From: a virus
IMG/VR virus record: IMGVR_UViG_3300000101_000093
Location: 1 to 30,713 of that record
Strand: one strand, 5' to 3'
DNA length: 30,713 nucleotides
Below the pieces are notes generated by a model. The model was not told the DNA's origin and made no database searches. It was given only the letters and a program-made list of their open reading frames with translations. A program made the translations under genes and the position numbers. This document shows, piece by piece, positions 4,301 to 28,594 of this stretch. Position 1 is the first letter of the stretch. Each line of letters opens with the position of its first letter.

Positions 4301-5158
4301 CATATCCTTCATATCGCCATTGGCCAATTTAGTATCAATACCATACTCTTTTAATTTTGTACTCGCTCCACCAATGTCGCCACCAAGTCGAGCATACATC
4401 ATTTTCAAAGAACGACCAGCGGCACCAGCCTGTTCACCAGACTCAATCATAACAGCGGACATTGCCGCCATATCTTCAATACTTGAACCTGTCAAATGTG
4501 CCTGCGAAGCGAACTGATTCATAGTGAAAGTTAATTGTTCCATCGTAGCGATAGACCGATTCTCAACGGTATTCAAAGCATCGAGAGTTTGTATGCTTGA
4601 CTTTTCTAAAACACTTTTCTGCTCCATAGCATTTAGGGCCTTAAAAGTTTCCTTACTATACTCACCATACATAAAGCCAGTCTGTTGCTGTAAGTTAGTT
4701 ATACGACGCATAGCACTCTCAGTGTCCATACCACTGATAAGAGAGAACATAACACCCATTTGGGTTCCAATTAGGATATTAGTTTCACCAATGACAGCGC
4801 CCATTTGAGCCATACGAGCAGCAGCATCGAAAGTCTCACTTGCTGTCATAGCAAAGTTATGACCCATATCAATTAAACTTTCATTTATGTTATCTAAGGC
4901 TATTCGACTATCCACGCTTACGAACTTTTCAAAGGCTATTCTAGCCTCTCCTACCTCGATAGCCAAATCTTTTGTTCTACTGACCATGCCATCAATCATC
5001 ATCCCTACGTCACCCATAGGGCCTAGGACAGCATCGAACACGTCAAGCATTACTGCTTGCATGATAGTCTGAGAAGTTTTCATGTCAGCAATCAGTTTAT
5101 CTGATTGCCATTTGGCAACGACATCGAAAAAGATACGGGATGCGCCAACACGTGTCAT
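1382..5158 (-). CDS. Tail tape measure protein
   Basis: This is the longest gene, 1258 residues from ATG 5158. The start is chosen because GGAGTGAT lies 4-8 bases upstream; an in-frame GTG at 5167 overlaps the previous stop. The N-terminal third (about residues 85-300) has the helical pattern of TP901-type tape measures, including the segment GEQAGAAGRSLKMMYARLGG. The middle is long coiled-coil helix rich in Ala, Gln, Lys and Glu. Around residues 790-890 there are two or three hydrophobic segments, typical of tape measures that insert into the host membrane. Its position after the tail-chaperone pair fits. By the rule of about 0.15 nm per residue the tail could be roughly 180-190 nm long (inference). 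Confidence 0.93.
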   Translation of the reverse strand: MTRVGASRIFFDVVAKWQSDKLIADMKTSQTIMQAVMLDVFDAVLGPMGDVGMMIDGMVSRTKDLAIEVGEARIAFEKFVSVDSRIALDNINESLIDMGHNFAMTASETFDAAARMAQMGAVIGETNILIGTQMGVMFSLISGMDTESAMRRITNLQQQTGFMYGEYSKETFKALNAMEQKSVLEKSSIQTLDALNTVENRSIATMEQLTFTMNQFASQAHLTGSSIEDMAAMSAVMIESGEQAGAAGRSLKMMYARLGGDIGGASTKLKEYGIDTKLANGDMKDMISIMRELKEKGWDQTTSANKQAIAQTIAGNRHYVRFIKLMEGYDRAVQLSAEATDGLASAQEEVNRRLEDPVVILEALNAEIEDYSAKIGTSLLPGITAAARAQRDYNAELLNFTSGEYGDTFASIANSLVKFREMTKITGGFLQLQLTIRAIIIGMGAFRSVMAAIGGQQIAIDSAFGSTRTTIQGSNMSLKEQKTIMKEIKGINDQITLLKSKDRAAEGNVRAAQQAKKYVEREILDMKQQEAAYTTLYGSELSLNFTKEKLRGQLLKNIGDEIRGHATAAATERSALMERTILLKQYGGTSAKMNTTARIQLATTHAQLVAEREIIQTQIIQRQFDEIALKVEANRAQAEQYTNAQGRAYTAKEIADLKKKWKEHQAITQQMEAQAFYMHSSIMDLDTHITKLKIYDRVEKEITVTRSKARSILDSTATTTGKMTALNELLRESNIKLSMAELRRTVTTGDLDLAMKRLETSMQKVILAEEKKNVAITKGAKAYGYAKTGAQAYSGGLMAISMLAPMIMGGQEGMRISMVATTLSMVPMIFTMGAATIAMMKTSLAALQLSAAMTTIVSVSGLLLAAAAVYYFADWIMGAESATDATTDFTNELMKMTSILDQLKGGTDYMLFEGVEKHIASSLGLVNYEIRELKENYGMARETAHELGLALEQALDPDTRDMLETNLKEVQAITAAHLDIQRMQYQGYIVGDSESSGRVMADAMIRGFGKNLNREEIHATWDEAFGPLGDLPGYGQMLSDKAGKGAFYGDLDMLFEADGDQAIRTNRRILGAIQGDFEAGLGIREQSLASARIFSDQTDDYSQSRKNEAKTEFIALKMLENAYKSMGKTLGDNSRPLDLYNEMLAEGSLGALAAANAILSMNDAATEVDGGLQVLSDDFTNLTEEMTAFGNAKDELFFGGKYGNVTGSLYKQVVTQGVGTLYNKQEVIMTNNFNGFFNEEEAAAKIISVLNKHMETGS

Positions 5159-5163
5159 ATAAA

Positions 5164-5433
5164 TCACTCCTTGTCTTCTCTAATGAACCCACCGTCTTTT
5201 AACAATTGCAGTGTTTCAGCGCCGTCCATTTCAACAGAACGCTGTGCTCTTCTCTGTCTTTTTCTTGACTCCATAGCATTACCAGAGTTTTTATCTGTGC
5301 CATGAGCCTCTTTAATCTGATCGTGAATCTCACCAAGGGTAGATAAATCAAACTCCATCCTTCTCCATCCTCCAAATCCGTTGTATTTTTCAATCAGGTC
5401 GGAGGGTAAGATGCCCTTGTAAGAAGAGCACAT
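5164..5433 (-). CDS. Tail assembly chaperone T-domain ORF (expressed mainly by -1 frameshift)
   Basis: An 89-codon frame from ATG 5433 lies between the G-like gene and the tape measure. The same frame is open upstream to 5478, overlapping the end of the G-like gene, which places it in -1 relative to that gene. A CCCTTTG slippery heptamer lies in the overlap. This matches the G/GT chaperone organisation of lambda-like tails, so the main product is probably a G-T fusion; independent initiation at 5433 is possible. The protein is hydrophilic and basic in the middle (ESRKRQRRAQRSVEM). Its stop is six bases upstream of the tape-measure start. No sequence family is recognised, so the call rests on context and the slippery site. 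Confidence 0.72.
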   Translation of the reverse strand: MCSSYKGILPSDLIEKYNGFGGWRRMEFDLSTLGEIHDQIKEAHGTDKNSGNAMESRKRQRRAQRSVEMDGAETLQLLKDGGFIREDKE

Positions 5434-5450
5434 CGCCGGAGCGACCTTCC

Positions 5451-5807
5451 CTATTGATCCAAAGGGGCTGCGCCGTCTTCATCTCCGACATCACCACCGC
5501 GCACGAACAAAAAGATTTCTCTCAGTTCTTCAATGGTGAGTGAGTTAATGTCAAAGTTTTCGTTCAGGATGCATGGGGGGACAAGAGCCATCATTTGGTC
5601 TTGCATACCGCCGCCGAGTTCTTCGACGTGATCCATAAACTCTTCGGTTTGCTCTTCAGTCCAAGTAGACTGGTCAAGGCCGAAGTGCCTAAACTTTCTA
5701 AACGCCTTAGAGAGAATACTCTCAAAGGGTAATTTTTCAAGGCCACTGGCCTGTCGCGCTTCTATCTCTAGTTCATCAAACGTGAACTCTTTTGTTTTTA
5801 CTGGCAT
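5451..5807 (-). CDS. Tail assembly chaperone (G-like)
   Basis: 118 residues from ATG 5807, preceded by GAAGTGATAGAG, a ribosome-binding pattern also used by the protease and tape-measure genes. A longer in-frame start at 5876 overlaps the preceding stop (ATGA), but it would add a hydrophobic, Arg-rich stretch unlike the rest. The protein is acidic and helical (KTKEFTFDELEIEARQ at the start, EEQTEEFMDHVEELGGG mid-way) and resembles small tail chaperones in size and composition. It sits between the tail tube and the tape measure, where G proteins are found. Near its 3' end, frame codons CCT TTG form a slippery site that lets some ribosomes enter the downstream T frame. Confidence 0.75.
   Translation of the reverse strand: MPVKTKEFTFDELEIEARQASGLEKLPFESILSKAFRKFRHFGLDQSTWTEEQTEEFMDHVEELGGGMQDQMMALVPPCILNENFDINSLTIEELREIFLFVRGGDVGDEDGAAPLDQ
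5460..5466 (-). promoter_or_regulatory. Programmed -1 ribosomal frameshift site CCCTTTG
   Basis: Read on the minus strand, the zero-frame codons ..GCC CCT TTG GAT CAA TAG contain C CCT TTG, a perfect X XXY YYZ heptamer. After a -1 slip the frame continues CCC TTT GGA TCA ATA GGG AAG with no stop through the T-domain ORF. The site lies three codons before the G-like stop, in the gene position where tail-chaperone frameshifting is widespread. I did not identify a clear downstream pseudoknot. Confidence 0.75.
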
Positions 5808-5872
5808 CTCTATCACTTCTCTTACTCTTAACTCTGTTCTCAGATAATGGAAACATAATAACACTCCCATAA

Positions 5873-6070
5873 TCATGCGACATCATACCACACTACGGTT
5901 AGTGTGATGCGGTCGCTATCTTTTTTCCTGCTTGTATCACAAGATATTATTACGTCAGCATTGGCTATTGCGGCCCTAAATGCTGTTTGAACTTCTGCTG
6001 CTGTACCAGTAAATTGACTGACTATTAACTTTGTCTTGTCAGTAACAACCATTCCACCGTTATTAGCCAT
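5873..6070 (-). CDS. Small conserved-position tail protein, unknown
   Basis: 65 residues from ATG 6070, with GAGGTGG upstream in the gap after the tail-tube stop. The short product (start MANNGGMVVTDKTK, end LTVVWYDVA) alternates beta-like stretches. No family is recognised. Its position between tail tube and tail chaperone suggests a minor tail or assembly protein. The stop overlaps an ATG at 5876 (ATGA), but the better start for the next gene is at 5807. Confidence 0.7.
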   Translation of the reverse strand: MANNGGMVVTDKTKLIVSQFTGTAAEVQTAFRAAIANADVIISCDTSRKKDSDRITLTVVWYDVA

Positions 6071-6080
6071 CTAAGCCACC

Positions 6081-7124
6081 TCACATTCCTGTGTAGACTT
6101 GATTGGCACCGGCTGTCATGTGAGTAACTTCTAGCATATGGTTAGAAGGATTAGAACCCATTATACGGACGTATGCTCGGTAGTTTAGAGACATGGTAGT
6201 GGTATCTCTACCACTAACATTGGTTCCTGAAGGAGCCTCATATCTAACATCGAAAAGGTCGATTTGTGTAGTGTGTGTTCCATCTGATAGTGTAAATCTA
6301 AGTGCGTAAGATGTAACAGCGGCGTCAGGTTTAACTTCAAGTCCACCAGATGCTATTAATTCCGCATATGTTGGTTCTGATTCTTGGCCGGCTGGTAGGG
6401 GGTCACTGTTAAGTATTGGTTGGTTGAACTCTATGGTTCCAGTAACTTCTCTGCGCTGCATAGGTGGTTGGCGAACATATGTGTTGCTACCAATAGCACA
6501 AGCAGCGTCACCATCAAGATTGTTATTCAATTCCATTGAGAATGATTTAACCATTGTCGAAGCAGTAGTGTCAGCATCGAACTTAACTGAAGCGTCAACG
6601 AAATGCATTCCATCGACCGCCTTTCCGTCGAAGGCTGGTGATCCTGTTAATGCACTAAGGGCACTCTCAGCCTTACCCATGAAGCCAACGCTCATAGTAA
6701 CATATTCTCCGAGAGAAGCACTAAGGGATAAGCGATTGACACACATACCTTGGTAAGTGTGCTGTAAATCCTGTCTACCTACTCTGATTCTGAAAGAAGG
6801 GAGAGTGTTAGCAACGGTTTCTGTCATTACGTGAGTATAAGGGTCACTGCCGGTAATTGCATCTGTTCCCATAGCGCCATAAAGTAATAGACCACAGAAG
6901 TCATCTGCTTGAAGAACTAAGTTAAGGTCGCCTTCTGAGTATTCTTTTCCGTTTTGGCTCTTGGTCATACCCCAGTAAGAAACATCACCACGGTCAAGTA
7001 TATCGAATGCGTGAACGATTGATTCGTCATCGACTTCACCTATCTTTTCGGTACCAATACTTGTTAGTGATCCATATGTTGCTTCTCGGGATATTCCGAC
7101 GTATCTATTTGCAAAGGTTGTCAT
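6081..7124 (-). CDS. Major tail tube protein
   Basis: 347 residues from ATG 7124, with GGAGTG nine bases upstream. The start (MTTFANRYVGISREATYGSL) and the segment SEGDLNLVLQADDFCGLLLYG are typical of long tail-tube proteins in tailed viruses, with a beta-rich core and an Ig-like C-terminal half (about residues 215-330). The gene lies upstream of the tail chaperones and tape measure, the standard place. No sheath-like gene lies next to it, which argues for a non-contractile tail. Family assignment is by pattern and synteny. Confidence 0.8.
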   Translation of the reverse strand: MTTFANRYVGISREATYGSLTSIGTEKIGEVDDESIVHAFDILDRGDVSYWGMTKSQNGKEYSEGDLNLVLQADDFCGLLLYGAMGTDAITGSDPYTHVMTETVANTLPSFRIRVGRQDLQHTYQGMCVNRLSLSASLGEYVTMSVGFMGKAESALSALTGSPAFDGKAVDGMHFVDASVKFDADTTASTMVKSFSMELNNNLDGDAACAIGSNTYVRQPPMQRREVTGTIEFNQPILNSDPLPAGQESEPTYAELIASGGLEVKPDAAVTSYALRFTLSDGTHTTQIDLFDVRYEAPSGTNVSGRDTTTMSLNYRAYVRIMGSNPSNHMLEVTHMTAGANQVYTGM

Positions 7125-21186: not shown

Positions 21187-22602
21187 TTACTCGATAAGCA
21201 CTGGTGAAAACAAAGAACCAACTAAGCCTTCCTCATAATCTATTATATGAGCAGCCAAACCAGCAGGACTTTGCGTATAACCGTGTCGATAATGATAACG
21301 ATCATGACCAGCAAGAGATGGTAGTTGGACAACTGTGCAGCCTTCAGTTTCTATTAGAGACTGGTGGTGAAGATGTCCGTGGAACCAGATATGCCAACGA
21401 TGGGAACCCCAATGCTCACGTGCCTCCGAAGCCATTAGTGATGGGAGTTTATTCCCACGAACAGCATCTCCGTGTGTGAAACCTAAGAGTGTGTCGCCAT
21501 AAGTTAGATATTGACGCGTCTTTGGTGAAACTATTACAGATACATCGTTAGCATTCTCATAAACAGCAGATAAATACATCATTAGGGCGTAAGTCGAGTG
21601 CCTATCGTGATTACCCGGCATAAATGTGACATCAACAGGCGCTATTTGTCGAAGTAATTCGATATGTTCACGCGCAAGGCGGCAACCAGTCATAAGTATC
21701 TCGGCAGGGGAAGCACAGGAGTCCTGTGGGGTGCCACGTGTTGTCGTATTGTTATCATTGTCGATATGGAACCAATCTGAACCAGCAGCGAGAATGATTT
21801 TTTCTGGTTGACCCGGAATACGAGCAGCCAATTCTTCAGTCTTTGAAAATAACCTCTCTCTAGCAGTATCAAAATTATAAGTCTCTCCTACTTCATCTAC
21901 CCACCCATACTTTCCCCAATGGAAATCAGTAGGACTGATAACTAAGGCATATTGGCGACGAGATGATTTTAACTTGAGTTTTGGCGTTTTAGCCGGTGCA
22001 GCAGATACAAGTTTTAATAGATCGTCAAGGATGCTAGTTTTAAAATGGCGAAAGGACTGTGCGTCTTTCTTAATCTGAAGCATCTCTGCCTTTTCTGCAT
22101 CTTTGATAATAGTAGCCTTTTTCTTCTGTAGTAATTTCTCTGTCAATTCTTGAGTCGAAGTGTTATTGATAATCTCGTCAGTAAAGGGAATAGATGTATG
22201 AGTCCAACCATGCTTGCGAGCGTATTCTCCAAACCATGACTGCGGGAACTCGTATCGGAGACAGATTTCAGCCTTTGTGAGCGGCTTACCTATCTTATCA
22301 GAGTAAGCATCAAGCATACCACGATGAATATCACCCTCAAGCGATATAGTCTCCTGAGCCACATGCAAATATGTATGGTAAATATCAAGCGCCGAATCGT
22401 AAGTATAATCTTCCCTTTCCTCAGCCTCTTCTGTAATCGGATTCAAAGGCATATTTTCCCATCGCATGATAGCCATTTCCCAACCTTTTACGGATCGTGT
22501 ATCATCAATACTATGAAGGAACTTGGCGAAACCAAGTCGAGAGGTAGGTCGTTCATTAGCATATTCTTCTATAAGCGCATAGTCAAAAGGCGGTCTTCTC
22601 AT
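21187..22602 (-). CDS. Metallophosphoesterase with N-terminal DNA-binding-like domain
   Basis: 471 residues from ATG 22602. Residues 100-140 (GKPLTKAEICLRYEFPQSWF .. YARKHGW) resemble the helix-turn-helix of small terminases and similar proteins, then a Lys/Glu-rich helix to about 200. From 218 it is a calcineurin-like phosphoesterase: Asp226-x-His228 (SPTDFHWG), Asp276 (GSDWFH), Asn331-His332 (PGNHDRHS), His377 (FTHGD) and His410-x-His412 (HGHLHH), a complete two-metal site. Being the first gene of the morphogenesis run and next to the terminase module, it may act in DNA recognition, end processing or packaging. Substrate (DNA, nucleotide or protein phosphate) is not shown by the sequence. 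Confidence 0.82.
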   Translation of the reverse strand: MRRPPFDYALIEEYANERPTSRLGFAKFLHSIDDTRSVKGWEMAIMRWENMPLNPITEEAEEREDYTYDSALDIYHTYLHVAQETISLEGDIHRGMLDAYSDKIGKPLTKAEICLRYEFPQSWFGEYARKHGWTHTSIPFTDEIINNTSTQELTEKLLQKKKATIIKDAEKAEMLQIKKDAQSFRHFKTSILDDLLKLVSAAPAKTPKLKLKSSRRQYALVISPTDFHWGKYGWVDEVGETYNFDTARERLFSKTEELAARIPGQPEKIILAAGSDWFHIDNDNNTTTRGTPQDSCASPAEILMTGCRLAREHIELLRQIAPVDVTFMPGNHDRHSTYALMMYLSAVYENANDVSVIVSPKTRQYLTYGDTLLGFTHGDAVRGNKLPSLMASEAREHWGSHRWHIWFHGHLHHQSLIETEGCTVVQLPSLAGHDRYHYRHGYTQSPAGLAAHIIDYEEGLVGSLFSPVLIE

Positions 22603-23967: not shown

Positions 23968-24315
23968 TCATAGGCTGTTGGTGAAGTCTTCAAAGACCGA
24001 CGCTAGTGCCATTATAGTGCTTTCTAGTTGCTTTATTCGTGCTTCTAGTATAGGTGCCTCGATAGTCTCTAAGGCTTCAGTAATTGCCTCTTCTAAGGTT
24101 TCACTTGTCACAAGTGATTCGTGGACTTCTTGTAGGTCACTGATTTCACTATCTATCTCATCGCATCTGTTGTCAAGGTCATACACTTCAGATTGCACTT
24201 CATCTATCATGCCTTTGAGGTCGTCTGTACCTATTACACCATGTAGGGCGTTAATCAAGACTTCCTCCACTGTCGGCTCTATCTCTTCTTCTACTGTCTC
24301 GTTTGTTTCTTCCAT
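23968..24315 (-). CDS. Acidic coiled-coil protein (115 aa)
   Basis: 115 residues from ATG 24315, with AAGGAGG ten bases upstream. The protein is strongly acidic (start MEETNETVEEEIEPTVEEVL) and most of it is predicted coiled coil by heptad pattern (EVYDLDNRCDEIDSEISDLQ; ILEARIKQLESTIMAL). There is one Cys and no recognisable enzyme motif. It is a single-gene unit of the array. Acidic coiled-coil proteins in viruses can be inhibitors or DNA mimics, but nothing here proves that. Confidence 0.75.
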   Translation of the reverse strand: MEETNETVEEEIEPTVEEVLINALHGVIGTDDLKGMIDEVQSEVYDLDNRCDEIDSEISDLQEVHESLVTSETLEEAITEALETIEAPILEARIKQLESTIMALASVFEDFTNSL

Positions 24316-26269: not shown

Positions 26270-26420
26270 AAAGCAGGTCAAACCGCACAAGGGGAGAGGT
26301 GCGATGAGTTCCGAAATTACTTATTCACGTCATACGATTATCAGACGATTACATTTGTGCTGTCCTGTGTGGCAGCACCATTATTTTCCCATTAGGGATA
26401 AACAAGGAGGAAACAAACAA

Positions 26421-27572
26421 ATGAAAATAGAAAACGTAGCACTAGGAATGAATGAATTAGCCCTTGGGGTGGCCTTGGTTGCGATGCTTGCATTGCTTCT
26501 AGGGGTTGCTGCCAAGGGTCGTAGGTATGGCGTCGAAATCGAAGTCATTCGCAAGCATGGGGTCAGCAAATCCGGCCTAGCGAATTGGCTATCACGATTT
26601 GTAAACGGCACTCAATACCGTGGATATACGCATGAAACTATGAACACATGGAAGTTGGTCGATGACGGCTCTCTGAACAGCAGAGGAGTCGAAATAGTCA
26701 GCCCACCCATGTATTCAGAAGGCCATCAACTCATCCATACGATATGCACTAAATTGAAGGGATTGGCTTCGGCTGACGCTTCATGTGGAGTTCATCTCCA
26801 CACCCGCATATTGGATGAAAATGATGGCATTGATTCAGTGATGTATGGTGGTAATTTAGACAAGGCTGTAAGCCTAGTCGGGTGGATGTTTAGAACAGCA
26901 TTTGCTTACAATTATTTCCAACCTGTGATTGATAATTTCATGGCACCTTCGCGCCGTTCTGAAAACAACCCGAGTTATTGTGGGTCAATAGATAGAATGG
27001 TTATGCGAGCAGGTAGCATGAACCCAAATTACAACATCACAGCCGACTCATTTCAAGGTGGTCTTAACGCCATCAAGGATGAGGAAAGTAGGTGGTATAT
27101 TTCACGTGATATCATGAGTGAGTTGCGAGCAGGTAGATATGGAAATATCAACTTCGGTGCACTAGGTAAATACGGCACCATTGAGTTCCGTCAACATGGC
27201 GGCACTACTAACCCAAATCAGATTAACAATTGGGTTGAATTGATGCAACGTCTTTTGCTTGTCTGTCGTGAGGATTGGACTCCCGCTTCATTGCGTGACC
27301 CGAGACAATACACACAGACTCTAGGTGGATTCTTTGAATGGCTTGGTCTTTACAAGTCGCCACTACATGCGTTCTACACACGTCGCACCAAGAAGTTCAA
27401 CGGGTCGCTTTTAGCAGCCTGTACATCTTGTGACTCGACGCACTGTGACGGTGATGACTTTTGCCCACGGACACGCACACCAACCCCTTATTCTTACAGC
27501 GATGAAATGGATGAAGATGAGGATTATGAGTGCGAGGAATGTGGATATGATGCGGAGGACTGTGAATGTTGA
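26421..27572 (+). CDS. Membrane-anchored amidoligase (Amidoligase_2-like COOH-NH2 ligase)
   Basis: 383 residues from ATG 26421, preceded by AAGGAGG ten bases upstream; an in-frame ATG at 26304 would add 39 residues. A membrane helix (LALGVALVAMLALLLGVAA, residues 13-31) leads into the catalytic domain: RRYGVEIEV (34-42), WKLVDDGSLNSRGVEIVSPP (77-96), CGVHLHT (122-128) and YGTIEFRQHGGTT (251-263). These Glu, Asp, His and Arg positions are those of the glutamine-synthetase-fold amidoligases, which use ATP to join a carboxylate to an amine or ammonia. The C-terminus is acidic with CEEC, CGYD and CEC, a possible zinc knuckle. It is coupled to the amidotransferase gene. The substrate is not known. 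Confidence 0.83.
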   Translation: MKIENVALGMNELALGVALVAMLALLLGVAAKGRRYGVEIEVIRKHGVSKSGLANWLSRFVNGTQYRGYTHETMNTWKLVDDGSLNSRGVEIVSPPMYSEGHQLIHTICTKLKGLASADASCGVHLHTRILDENDGIDSVMYGGNLDKAVSLVGWMFRTAFAYNYFQPVIDNFMAPSRRSENNPSYCGSIDRMVMRAGSMNPNYNITADSFQGGLNAIKDEESRWYISRDIMSELRAGRYGNINFGALGKYGTIEFRQHGGTTNPNQINNWVELMQRLLLVCREDWTPASLRDPRQYTQTLGGFFEWLGLYKSPLHAFYTRRTKKFNGSLLAACTSCDSTHCDGDDFCPRTRTPTPYSYSDEMDEDEDYECEECGYDAEDCEC

Positions 27573-28594
27573 TGCTTCTCAGTCTACTACTACCTTTGGC
27601 CATCTTGGTCAACTGTGGCATTGGTGCTTATCACCACGCCTCAGCAGACACCATGCGTGTCAAGAAGGGACTTCGCAGACTTTGGGTCGGCCTAGCATCT
27701 CGCGGCACAGACGCAGCGGGAATGGCCTTCACTAATACTGATGGACTCAATCCGAATAATGGCAAACCCACTGACTTTAACGGGTCTTGGGTTATCAAGT
27801 CACCAACGGCGTCGAAGTCGATGGCAAAACACGTTTCAGGTTTTCTGAATAACAGCACTACTACTGTGCTGCTACACACTAGACTTGCCACACATGGAGC
27901 CAACGACGAGACAAATGCTCATCCGCATCGCAGCCCACAAACGGGTCGCATAACGATGGTTCACAACGGCATGATTTCAGGCCACTCTCAAGTCTTCAAG
28001 GACTTGAAGGTCAAGCCTCTGACTGATTGCGACAGTGAAGCAGCAGCCGCTTGTCTTGAAGACGGTGGCATCGACTGTGTAGTCGACCTCTGCTTCGGCA
28101 GCATGAGTCTACTATGGACCGACAGCAGTGAACCAAATGTCCTCAATGCTTGGACTAACGGTGGCAATCCTTTGGCCTTCGGGCGATTGGATAATGCCGA
28201 CACAGGTTCCGTAGTATTCGGGTCAACAAAAGCACATCTTCAGGCAGCCTTCAAGGGTCGCCTCAAGTCATGCTTCGATGCAACCATCGGTCGCCACTAC
28301 AAGGTCTTGGCAGACGGGTCAATCACTCATGAGGATATCAAATACTCTGAGGACACCTACTACACCAAGTCTTGGTCATATAGTTACGGCACCAAGTCCA
28401 AAGCAGTCAAGAAGACCAAAGGGAAGCACACTTACAATGGTAAATACCACCAAGGTGTGCGACCTGATGGCACTACTTACAATCTGCCGGATTGGGTCGA
28501 CTTTACTGACCAAATGGATATGATTGATATTGAGGATGGCGAATACGATTACAATCGCTATACTGACTATTACTCGGACTTCGCAAGCCTGTGA
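27566..28594 (+). CDS. Class II glutamine amidotransferase (stand-alone glutaminase domain)
   Basis: 342 residues from ATG 27566, overlapping the amidoligase stop, with GGAGG seven bases upstream; ATG 27572 is an alternative. A hydrophobic N-terminus (MLMLLSLLLPLAILVN) precedes Cys17-Gly-Ile-Gly, the usual nucleophile motif. Other class II landmarks are LASRGTDAAGMAF (43-55), LLHTRLATHG (102-111), NAHPH (117-121), VHNGMISGH (132-140) and TDCDSEA (153-159). There is no sugar isomerase or synthetase domain, so it should release ammonia from glutamine for a partner enzyme, most simply the adjoining amidoligase. The Cys must be exposed at a new N-terminus for normal catalysis, implying processing. 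The C-terminus is Tyr/Asp-rich. Confidence 0.85.
   Translation: MLMLLSLLLPLAILVNCGIGAYHHASADTMRVKKGLRRLWVGLASRGTDAAGMAFTNTDGLNPNNGKPTDFNGSWVIKSPTASKSMAKHVSGFLNNSTTTVLLHTRLATHGANDETNAHPHRSPQTGRITMVHNGMISGHSQVFKDLKVKPLTDCDSEAAAACLEDGGIDCVVDLCFGSMSLLWTDSSEPNVLNAWTNGGNPLAFGRLDNADTGSVVFGSTKAHLQAAFKGRLKSCFDATIGRHYKVLADGSITHEDIKYSEDTYYTKSWSYSYGTKSKAVKKTKGKHTYNGKYHQGVRPDGTTYNLPDWVDFTDQMDMIDIEDGEYDYNRYTDYYSDFASL

Follow-up and report, generated by a model that had tools for sequence, protein, structure and literature searches.

The amidoligase and glutaminase genes of the window

The window analysed here, from a marine virus, is the whole 30,713 nt of IMG/VR virus record IMGVR_UViG_3300000101_000093. 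Its large ORFs between 1.4 and 25.9 kb all run leftward, including the structural genes (terminase, portal, tail tube and tape measure), and the earliest large rightward genes, on the + strand, encode an amidoligase and a class II glutamine amidotransferase (GATase). The original prediction had placed the two genes at the head of the rightward genes with a seven-base overlap, which the ORF coordinates (26421-27572 and 27566-28594, sharing 27566-27572) bear out. Conservation is given across 19 records, comprising the window and 18 relatives with a fused gene, which were gathered via a metallophosphoesterase and then with an alignment of eight GATase sequences; scans with a single sequence or with two sequences recovered almost no relatives. 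The features of the locus are as follows.

26406..26410, + strand: Shine-Dalgarno GGAGG of the amidoligase gene, 10 nt gap to the ATG at 26421
26421..27572, + strand: Amidoligase_2 gene, 383 aa, ATG start (PF12224; phrog_2443)
26457..26513, + strand: TM1, predicted N-terminal transmembrane segment, residues 13-31 (Kyte-Doolittle mean 2.69)
26517..27275, + strand: amidoligase catalytic domain (Pfam; motifs GVEIE, DDGS, VEIVSP, HLH, PSRR, TIEFRQH)
27420..27569, + strand: Cys-rich acidic tail with CxxC clusters, Zn-binding-like (alignment)
27554..27558, + strand: internal Shine-Dalgarno GGAGG of the GATase gene, within the amidoligase gene, 7 nt gap to the ATG at 27566
27566..28594, + strand: class II glutamine amidotransferase gene, 342 aa, ATG start (PF13522; model; fold match)
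27566..27613, + strand: hydrophobic pre-cysteine segment MLMLLSLLLPLAILVN, residues 1-16, predicted to be removed (equivalents in 19/19 records)
27614..27616, + strand: codon of catalytic Cys17, the expected Cys1 of the mature glutaminase (invariant in 19 records)
27614..28255, + strand: glutaminase (Ntn) domain (conservation, model and fold; Cys, Arg of HTRxATHG, Asn-Gly of HNG, Asp of DS)
28448..28489, + strand: C-terminal motif HxG[IV]RP[DN]GxxYxLP (alignments)

Both families named in the original prediction were recovered by Pfam above the curated cut-offs. The first ORF matches Amidoligase_2 (PF12224) with E = 8.5e-21 and 75.4 bits against a cut-off of 22, and also the PHROG amidoligase family phrog_2443 at 3.4e-24, while the second matches GATase_6 (PF13522) with E = 6.5e-14 and 52.5 bits against a cut-off of 27. 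An NCBIfam search gave GlmS and PurF matches, all of them sub-threshold. Ten of the 11 amidoligase motif residues checked are invariant across the 19 records, the lone exception being the Asn of NIN, which is Arg in L123, and the GATase Cys, Arg, Asn-Gly and Asp are invariant in all 19. The motif HxG[IV]RP[DN]GxxYxLP lies outside the matched Pfam models and is kept in most members of the lineage.

The structure model of the window GATase has a pLDDT of 82.7, with residues 1-13 at very low confidence and the first strand starting beside the Cys. It matches the glutaminases of human GFAT, GlmS, PurF and asparagine synthetase, with a best E of 1.2e-15 (GFAT/GlmS) and a TM-score of 0.73 over the GlmS glutaminase domain. 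In the model, the window GATase has the Ntn-hydrolase glutaminase fold. The glutamine-synthetase/GCS-like fold of the amidoligase is predicted from sequence profiles, and no PDB sequence matched it.

Fused and split forms among related viruses

The nearest relative of the window is IMGVR_UViG_3300030376_005147 (L002), which is syntenic with it and shares 79% identity in the terminase, 75% in the portal and 72% in the metallophosphoesterase. In L002 both genes form one ORF of 721 aa, and in 18/19 records the amidoligase and GATase make up a single protein of about 720-950 aa, the window holding the only split version. The fused proteins are ordered from an N-terminal TM helix through the amidoligase, a linker, a hydrophobic segment of ~20 residues and the GATase to a C-terminal region. 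The linker is variable and in most cases Cys-rich, with CxxC clusters; its counterpart in the window is the Cys-rich acidic tail of the amidoligase, for which no Pfam family passed the cut-off. The original description of a two-gene system with a stand-alone glutaminase is thus right for the window but not for its relatives. The functional pairing of the two enzymes, also predicted, is supported both by this fusion and by the two domains occurring in the same 6/24 related records and never singly.

We also modelled the fused L002 protein. The model contains the same glutaminase, the N-terminal helix and, at moderate confidence, the amidoligase region, with the linker and the pre-Cys segment at low confidence; its pTM is 0.47, at which the domain arrangement is not reliable. 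The amidoligase identity is backed by the profile match and by the presence of the active-site residues, but not by the structure search with this model, where only glutaminase entries were among the 50 matches listed.

Both catalytic domains are under purifying selection, with dN/dS of ~0.07-0.22 in close pairs of relatives (between the window and L002 the synonymous sites are saturated). Because of these values and the catalytic residues kept in 19 records, the window ORFs are not due to chance. The fused gene also lies at 4597-7116 in each of two close virus records of ~60 kb, L116 and L117, whose fused proteins share 94-97% amino acid identity in the catalytic domains.

With all 18 relatives fused, the window gene could in truth be fused too, its split being an error of assembly or sequencing. 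We consider this unlikely, as the second ATG has a GGAGG at a good distance ahead of it, a placement (4-14 nt) found for just 5 of the 451 + strand ATGs, and an indel would need to have hit an interval of ~4 nt between two stops. The GGAGG inside the amidoligase gene argues instead for separate, probably coupled, translation of the GATase. An error would in any case be compatible with the explanation preferred below and would leave the main conclusion unchanged.

The 18 related records are apparently unclassified tailed viruses, and searches of named phages with the terminase, capsid and polymerase gave no close relative. Since relatives of 55-63 kb have a replication module (PolB, an RFC-like protein and an ERCC4 nuclease) that the window does not, the window record probably covers just part of a genome of about 60 kb. 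The metallophosphoesterase (DNA repair exonuclease-like; 21187-22602 in the window) adjoins the terminase gene and is common to 79 viral contigs at 39-71% identity, which makes it a handy marker of this unclassified group. Between 23199 and 25519 the window also carries up to five intergenic cassette repeats flanking small leftward ORFs, each with a GAGAGAGAGA tract and then a GC hairpin such as GGGGGGCCGAAGCCCCCC. A family search found no defence-system families.

The hydrophobic segment ahead of the catalytic cysteine

In all 19 records a hydrophobic segment ends directly at the catalytic Cys of the GATase, which as translated is residue 17 in the window and about residue 386-542 in the fused proteins. 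The window and L002 have VN↓CGIGAYH at the junction (arrow), and the other relatives VG↓CGIGAIH or near variants. In both the window GATase and the fused L002 models this segment has low confidence. The original prediction of N-terminal hydrophobic segments in both proteins is correct as to their presence, but that of the GATase is no ordinary anchor, given its position immediately before the catalytic residue.

Class II glutaminases, MEROPS family C44, normally lie at the extreme N-terminus of a protein, the Cys having to be the first residue. In these enzymes the N-terminal Cys carries out catalysis, and any residues that precede it are removed autocatalytically to free it (PMC9140057, PMC7056826); the ammonia is passed to a partner domain. 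Because class II GATases need the catalytic Cys as a free N-terminus, members of this lineage should need proteolytic maturation. We infer from the sequences that the chain is cleaved at the Cys, most likely autocatalytically. Autocatalysis is our preferred guess, since a Gly in the -1 position would lend itself to an N-S acyl shift, although a host protease might act in its place. A Cys in mid-protein behind a hydrophobic segment predicts such a maturation step, which could couple membrane assembly to enzyme activation.

The same segment can be read differently. Together with [LVI]xG↓C it could act as a Sec or lipoprotein-type signal, so that the GATase half is cut and then either exported or held outside the cell by a lipid anchor. 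In favour of this, the sequences LVG↓C, VVG↓C and IVG↓C look like a bacterial lipobox, and the segment is N-terminal in the window. However, it is internal in 18/19 records, a lipobox would not have the Asn that the window and L002 carry at -1, and 1-5 basic residues follow the segment. Lipidation would also block the catalytic thiol, yet the other catalytic residues are all kept, and we regard a signal of this kind as highly improbable. Very unlikely, too, is a GATase that stays unprocessed and catalytically dead, with a regulatory or structural role, while the amidoligase takes free ammonia or another amine. A free N-terminal Cys is indeed not encoded, and some phage amidoligases have no adjoining GATase gene (Bacillus phage 055SW001), but the Cys, Arg, Asn-Gly and Asp, whose loss would be expected in a dead enzyme, are invariant here in 19/19 records, under a GATase dN/dS of 0.07-0.22.

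A further reading is that the locus is an ordinary phage-type pair, as in Arthrobacter or LUZ24-like phages, in which the hydrophobic segments merely co-locate the two proteins and a host protease trivially frees the Cys. The two families, the adjacency of the genes and the enzyme classes are the same, and such modification cassettes of phages are described in the literature (PMC5498523, PMC10580990). The GATases of distant phages differ, however. All 62 recovered in the same search as the lineage start with Met-Cys (59 scored by script, three by eye) and none is fused to an amidoligase, whereas in the lineage all 19 records keep the segment before the Cys and 18 are fused. We regard an ordinary pair as unlikely and prefer a precursor that is matured at the Cys.

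The N-terminal hydrophobic helix of the amidoligase is likewise present in 19/19 records, with Kyte-Doolittle means of 1.97-2.94 and a basic flank on its C side; in the window, KGRR directly follows TM1, and the predicted orientation is N-out, C-in. As basic residues follow both hydrophobic segments, the positive-inside rule would place both N-out/C-in, so that, if the chain stayed uncut with the amidoligase on one side only, they could not both cross the membrane. Either cleavage may precede insertion, or the second hydrophobic segment may not be membrane-spanning.

Proposed function, host and relation to known systems

Together, these data suggest that the locus encodes a membrane-anchored glutamine-dependent amidoligase whose glutaminase is made as a precursor and switched on by proteolysis at (G/N)↓Cys, a reading to which we give a probability of roughly 0.6. 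The glutaminase half would free ammonia from glutamine, and the Amidoligase_2 half would use ATP to link a carboxyl group of the target to this ammonia, or to a different amine. As the amidoligase has an N-terminal membrane helix, the target would most likely be at or near the cell envelope. In its usual form the lineage has one precursor, with the glutaminase Cys internal and directly behind the hydrophobic segment, which should be silent as a glutaminase until it is cut at (G/N)↓Cys, probably autocatalytically, the route taken by class II GATases of the PurF type. The window differs in that its precursor is divided by a stop and an internal ribosome-binding site, with the hydrophobic segment staying on as an N-terminal propeptide or anchor. 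The fuller proposal, in which a self-activating viral precursor with reversed domain order makes the (G/N)↓Cys cut autocatalytically and amidates part of the envelope of an archaeal host, is more tentative and falls short of even odds.

The archaeal origin suggested by the original prediction gains indirect support. The family B DNA polymerase of long relatives is closest to that of Halorubrum tailed virus 27, and these relatives also have genes for an ERCC4-HHH nuclease and an RFC-like AAA ATPase; in the window all three leftward copies of TTATATA lie 45-49 nt upstream of small leftward ORFs (starting at 24315, 24852 and 25331), although over the whole window the motif is not enriched (four found versus 6.3 expected). 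These genes and the TTATATA placement favour an archaeal host, which is likely on this evidence; Poseidoniales would be a guess. The archaeal marker PCNA was not found, and a search of genome contigs with the amidoligase and terminase alignments yielded no host contig. Should the host be an archaeon that lacks peptidoglycan, the amidation target would be new too. The role in superinfection raised originally is speculation; like the target suggested there, it derives from a peptidoglycan hypothesis, which may not fit an archaeal host.

Pairs of Amidoligase_2 and class II GATase genes, adjacent or close, occur in bacterial phages (Arthrobacter Salgado/Ottawa, Pseudomonas UFV-P2/LUZ24-like, OM43), and a role in cell-envelope modification has been suggested for them (PMC3890496, PMC10580990). 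Such pairs are annotated in many bacterial phages, and the pair itself is not new in viruses. The apparent novelty is in the form, a fusion with a buried Cys: the phage pairs are separate proteins with a Met-Cys GATase, whereas here the two are fused (split in the window), carry membrane-type segments and have an internal or pre-sequenced Cys. A search of the phage collection and of open papers other than the amidoligase survey of Iyer et al. 2009 turned up no membrane-associated fusion with a buried cysteine.

Another parallel is the peptidoglycan modification cassette of podoviruses (PSA-HP1, phiEco32, LUZ24, U17), which combines an amidoligase, a GATase and a gamma-glutamyl cyclotransferase with ATP-grasp and COOH-NH2 ligases (PMC5498523, PMC11945000). 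Long relatives of the window virus have the first three, the third as follows.

L097, 4507-4881: gamma-glutamylamine cyclotransferase gene (also in G032, G040, G044, G047, G048, G049 and G054)

This cyclotransferase (PF06094) was found in 7/8 fusion-bearing records above 45 kb and in 0/6 comparable fusion-less records (one-sided Fisher P ~0.002, hand-calculated, for records that are related and not independent); the 30.7 kb window record, itself probably a fragment, lacks it. As the trio matches the podovirus cassette, the chemistry probably consists in forming and cleaving amide bonds of the gamma-glutamyl or a related type. ATP-grasp_4 (PF13535) was not found in 10 records, and COOH-NH2_lig (PF14395) was not found in the relatives in a search whose positive control gave no signal. 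The podovirus cassette also belongs to a different virus lineage, and the host here probably has no peptidoglycan.

Known class II glutaminase fusions place the glutaminase N-terminally. This is the case in the GFAT, PPAT and ASNS fusions (PMC9140057). GlmS/GFAT, PurF and asparagine synthetase, the closest folds to the window GATase, likewise have a class II glutaminase that feeds ammonia to a synthetase domain, and in PurF-type enzymes the Cys is freed from a propeptide (PMC7056826). Compared with these GlmS/PurF-type fusions, the glutaminase here is C-terminal, behind a hydrophobic segment, and an amidoligase takes the place of the synthetase.
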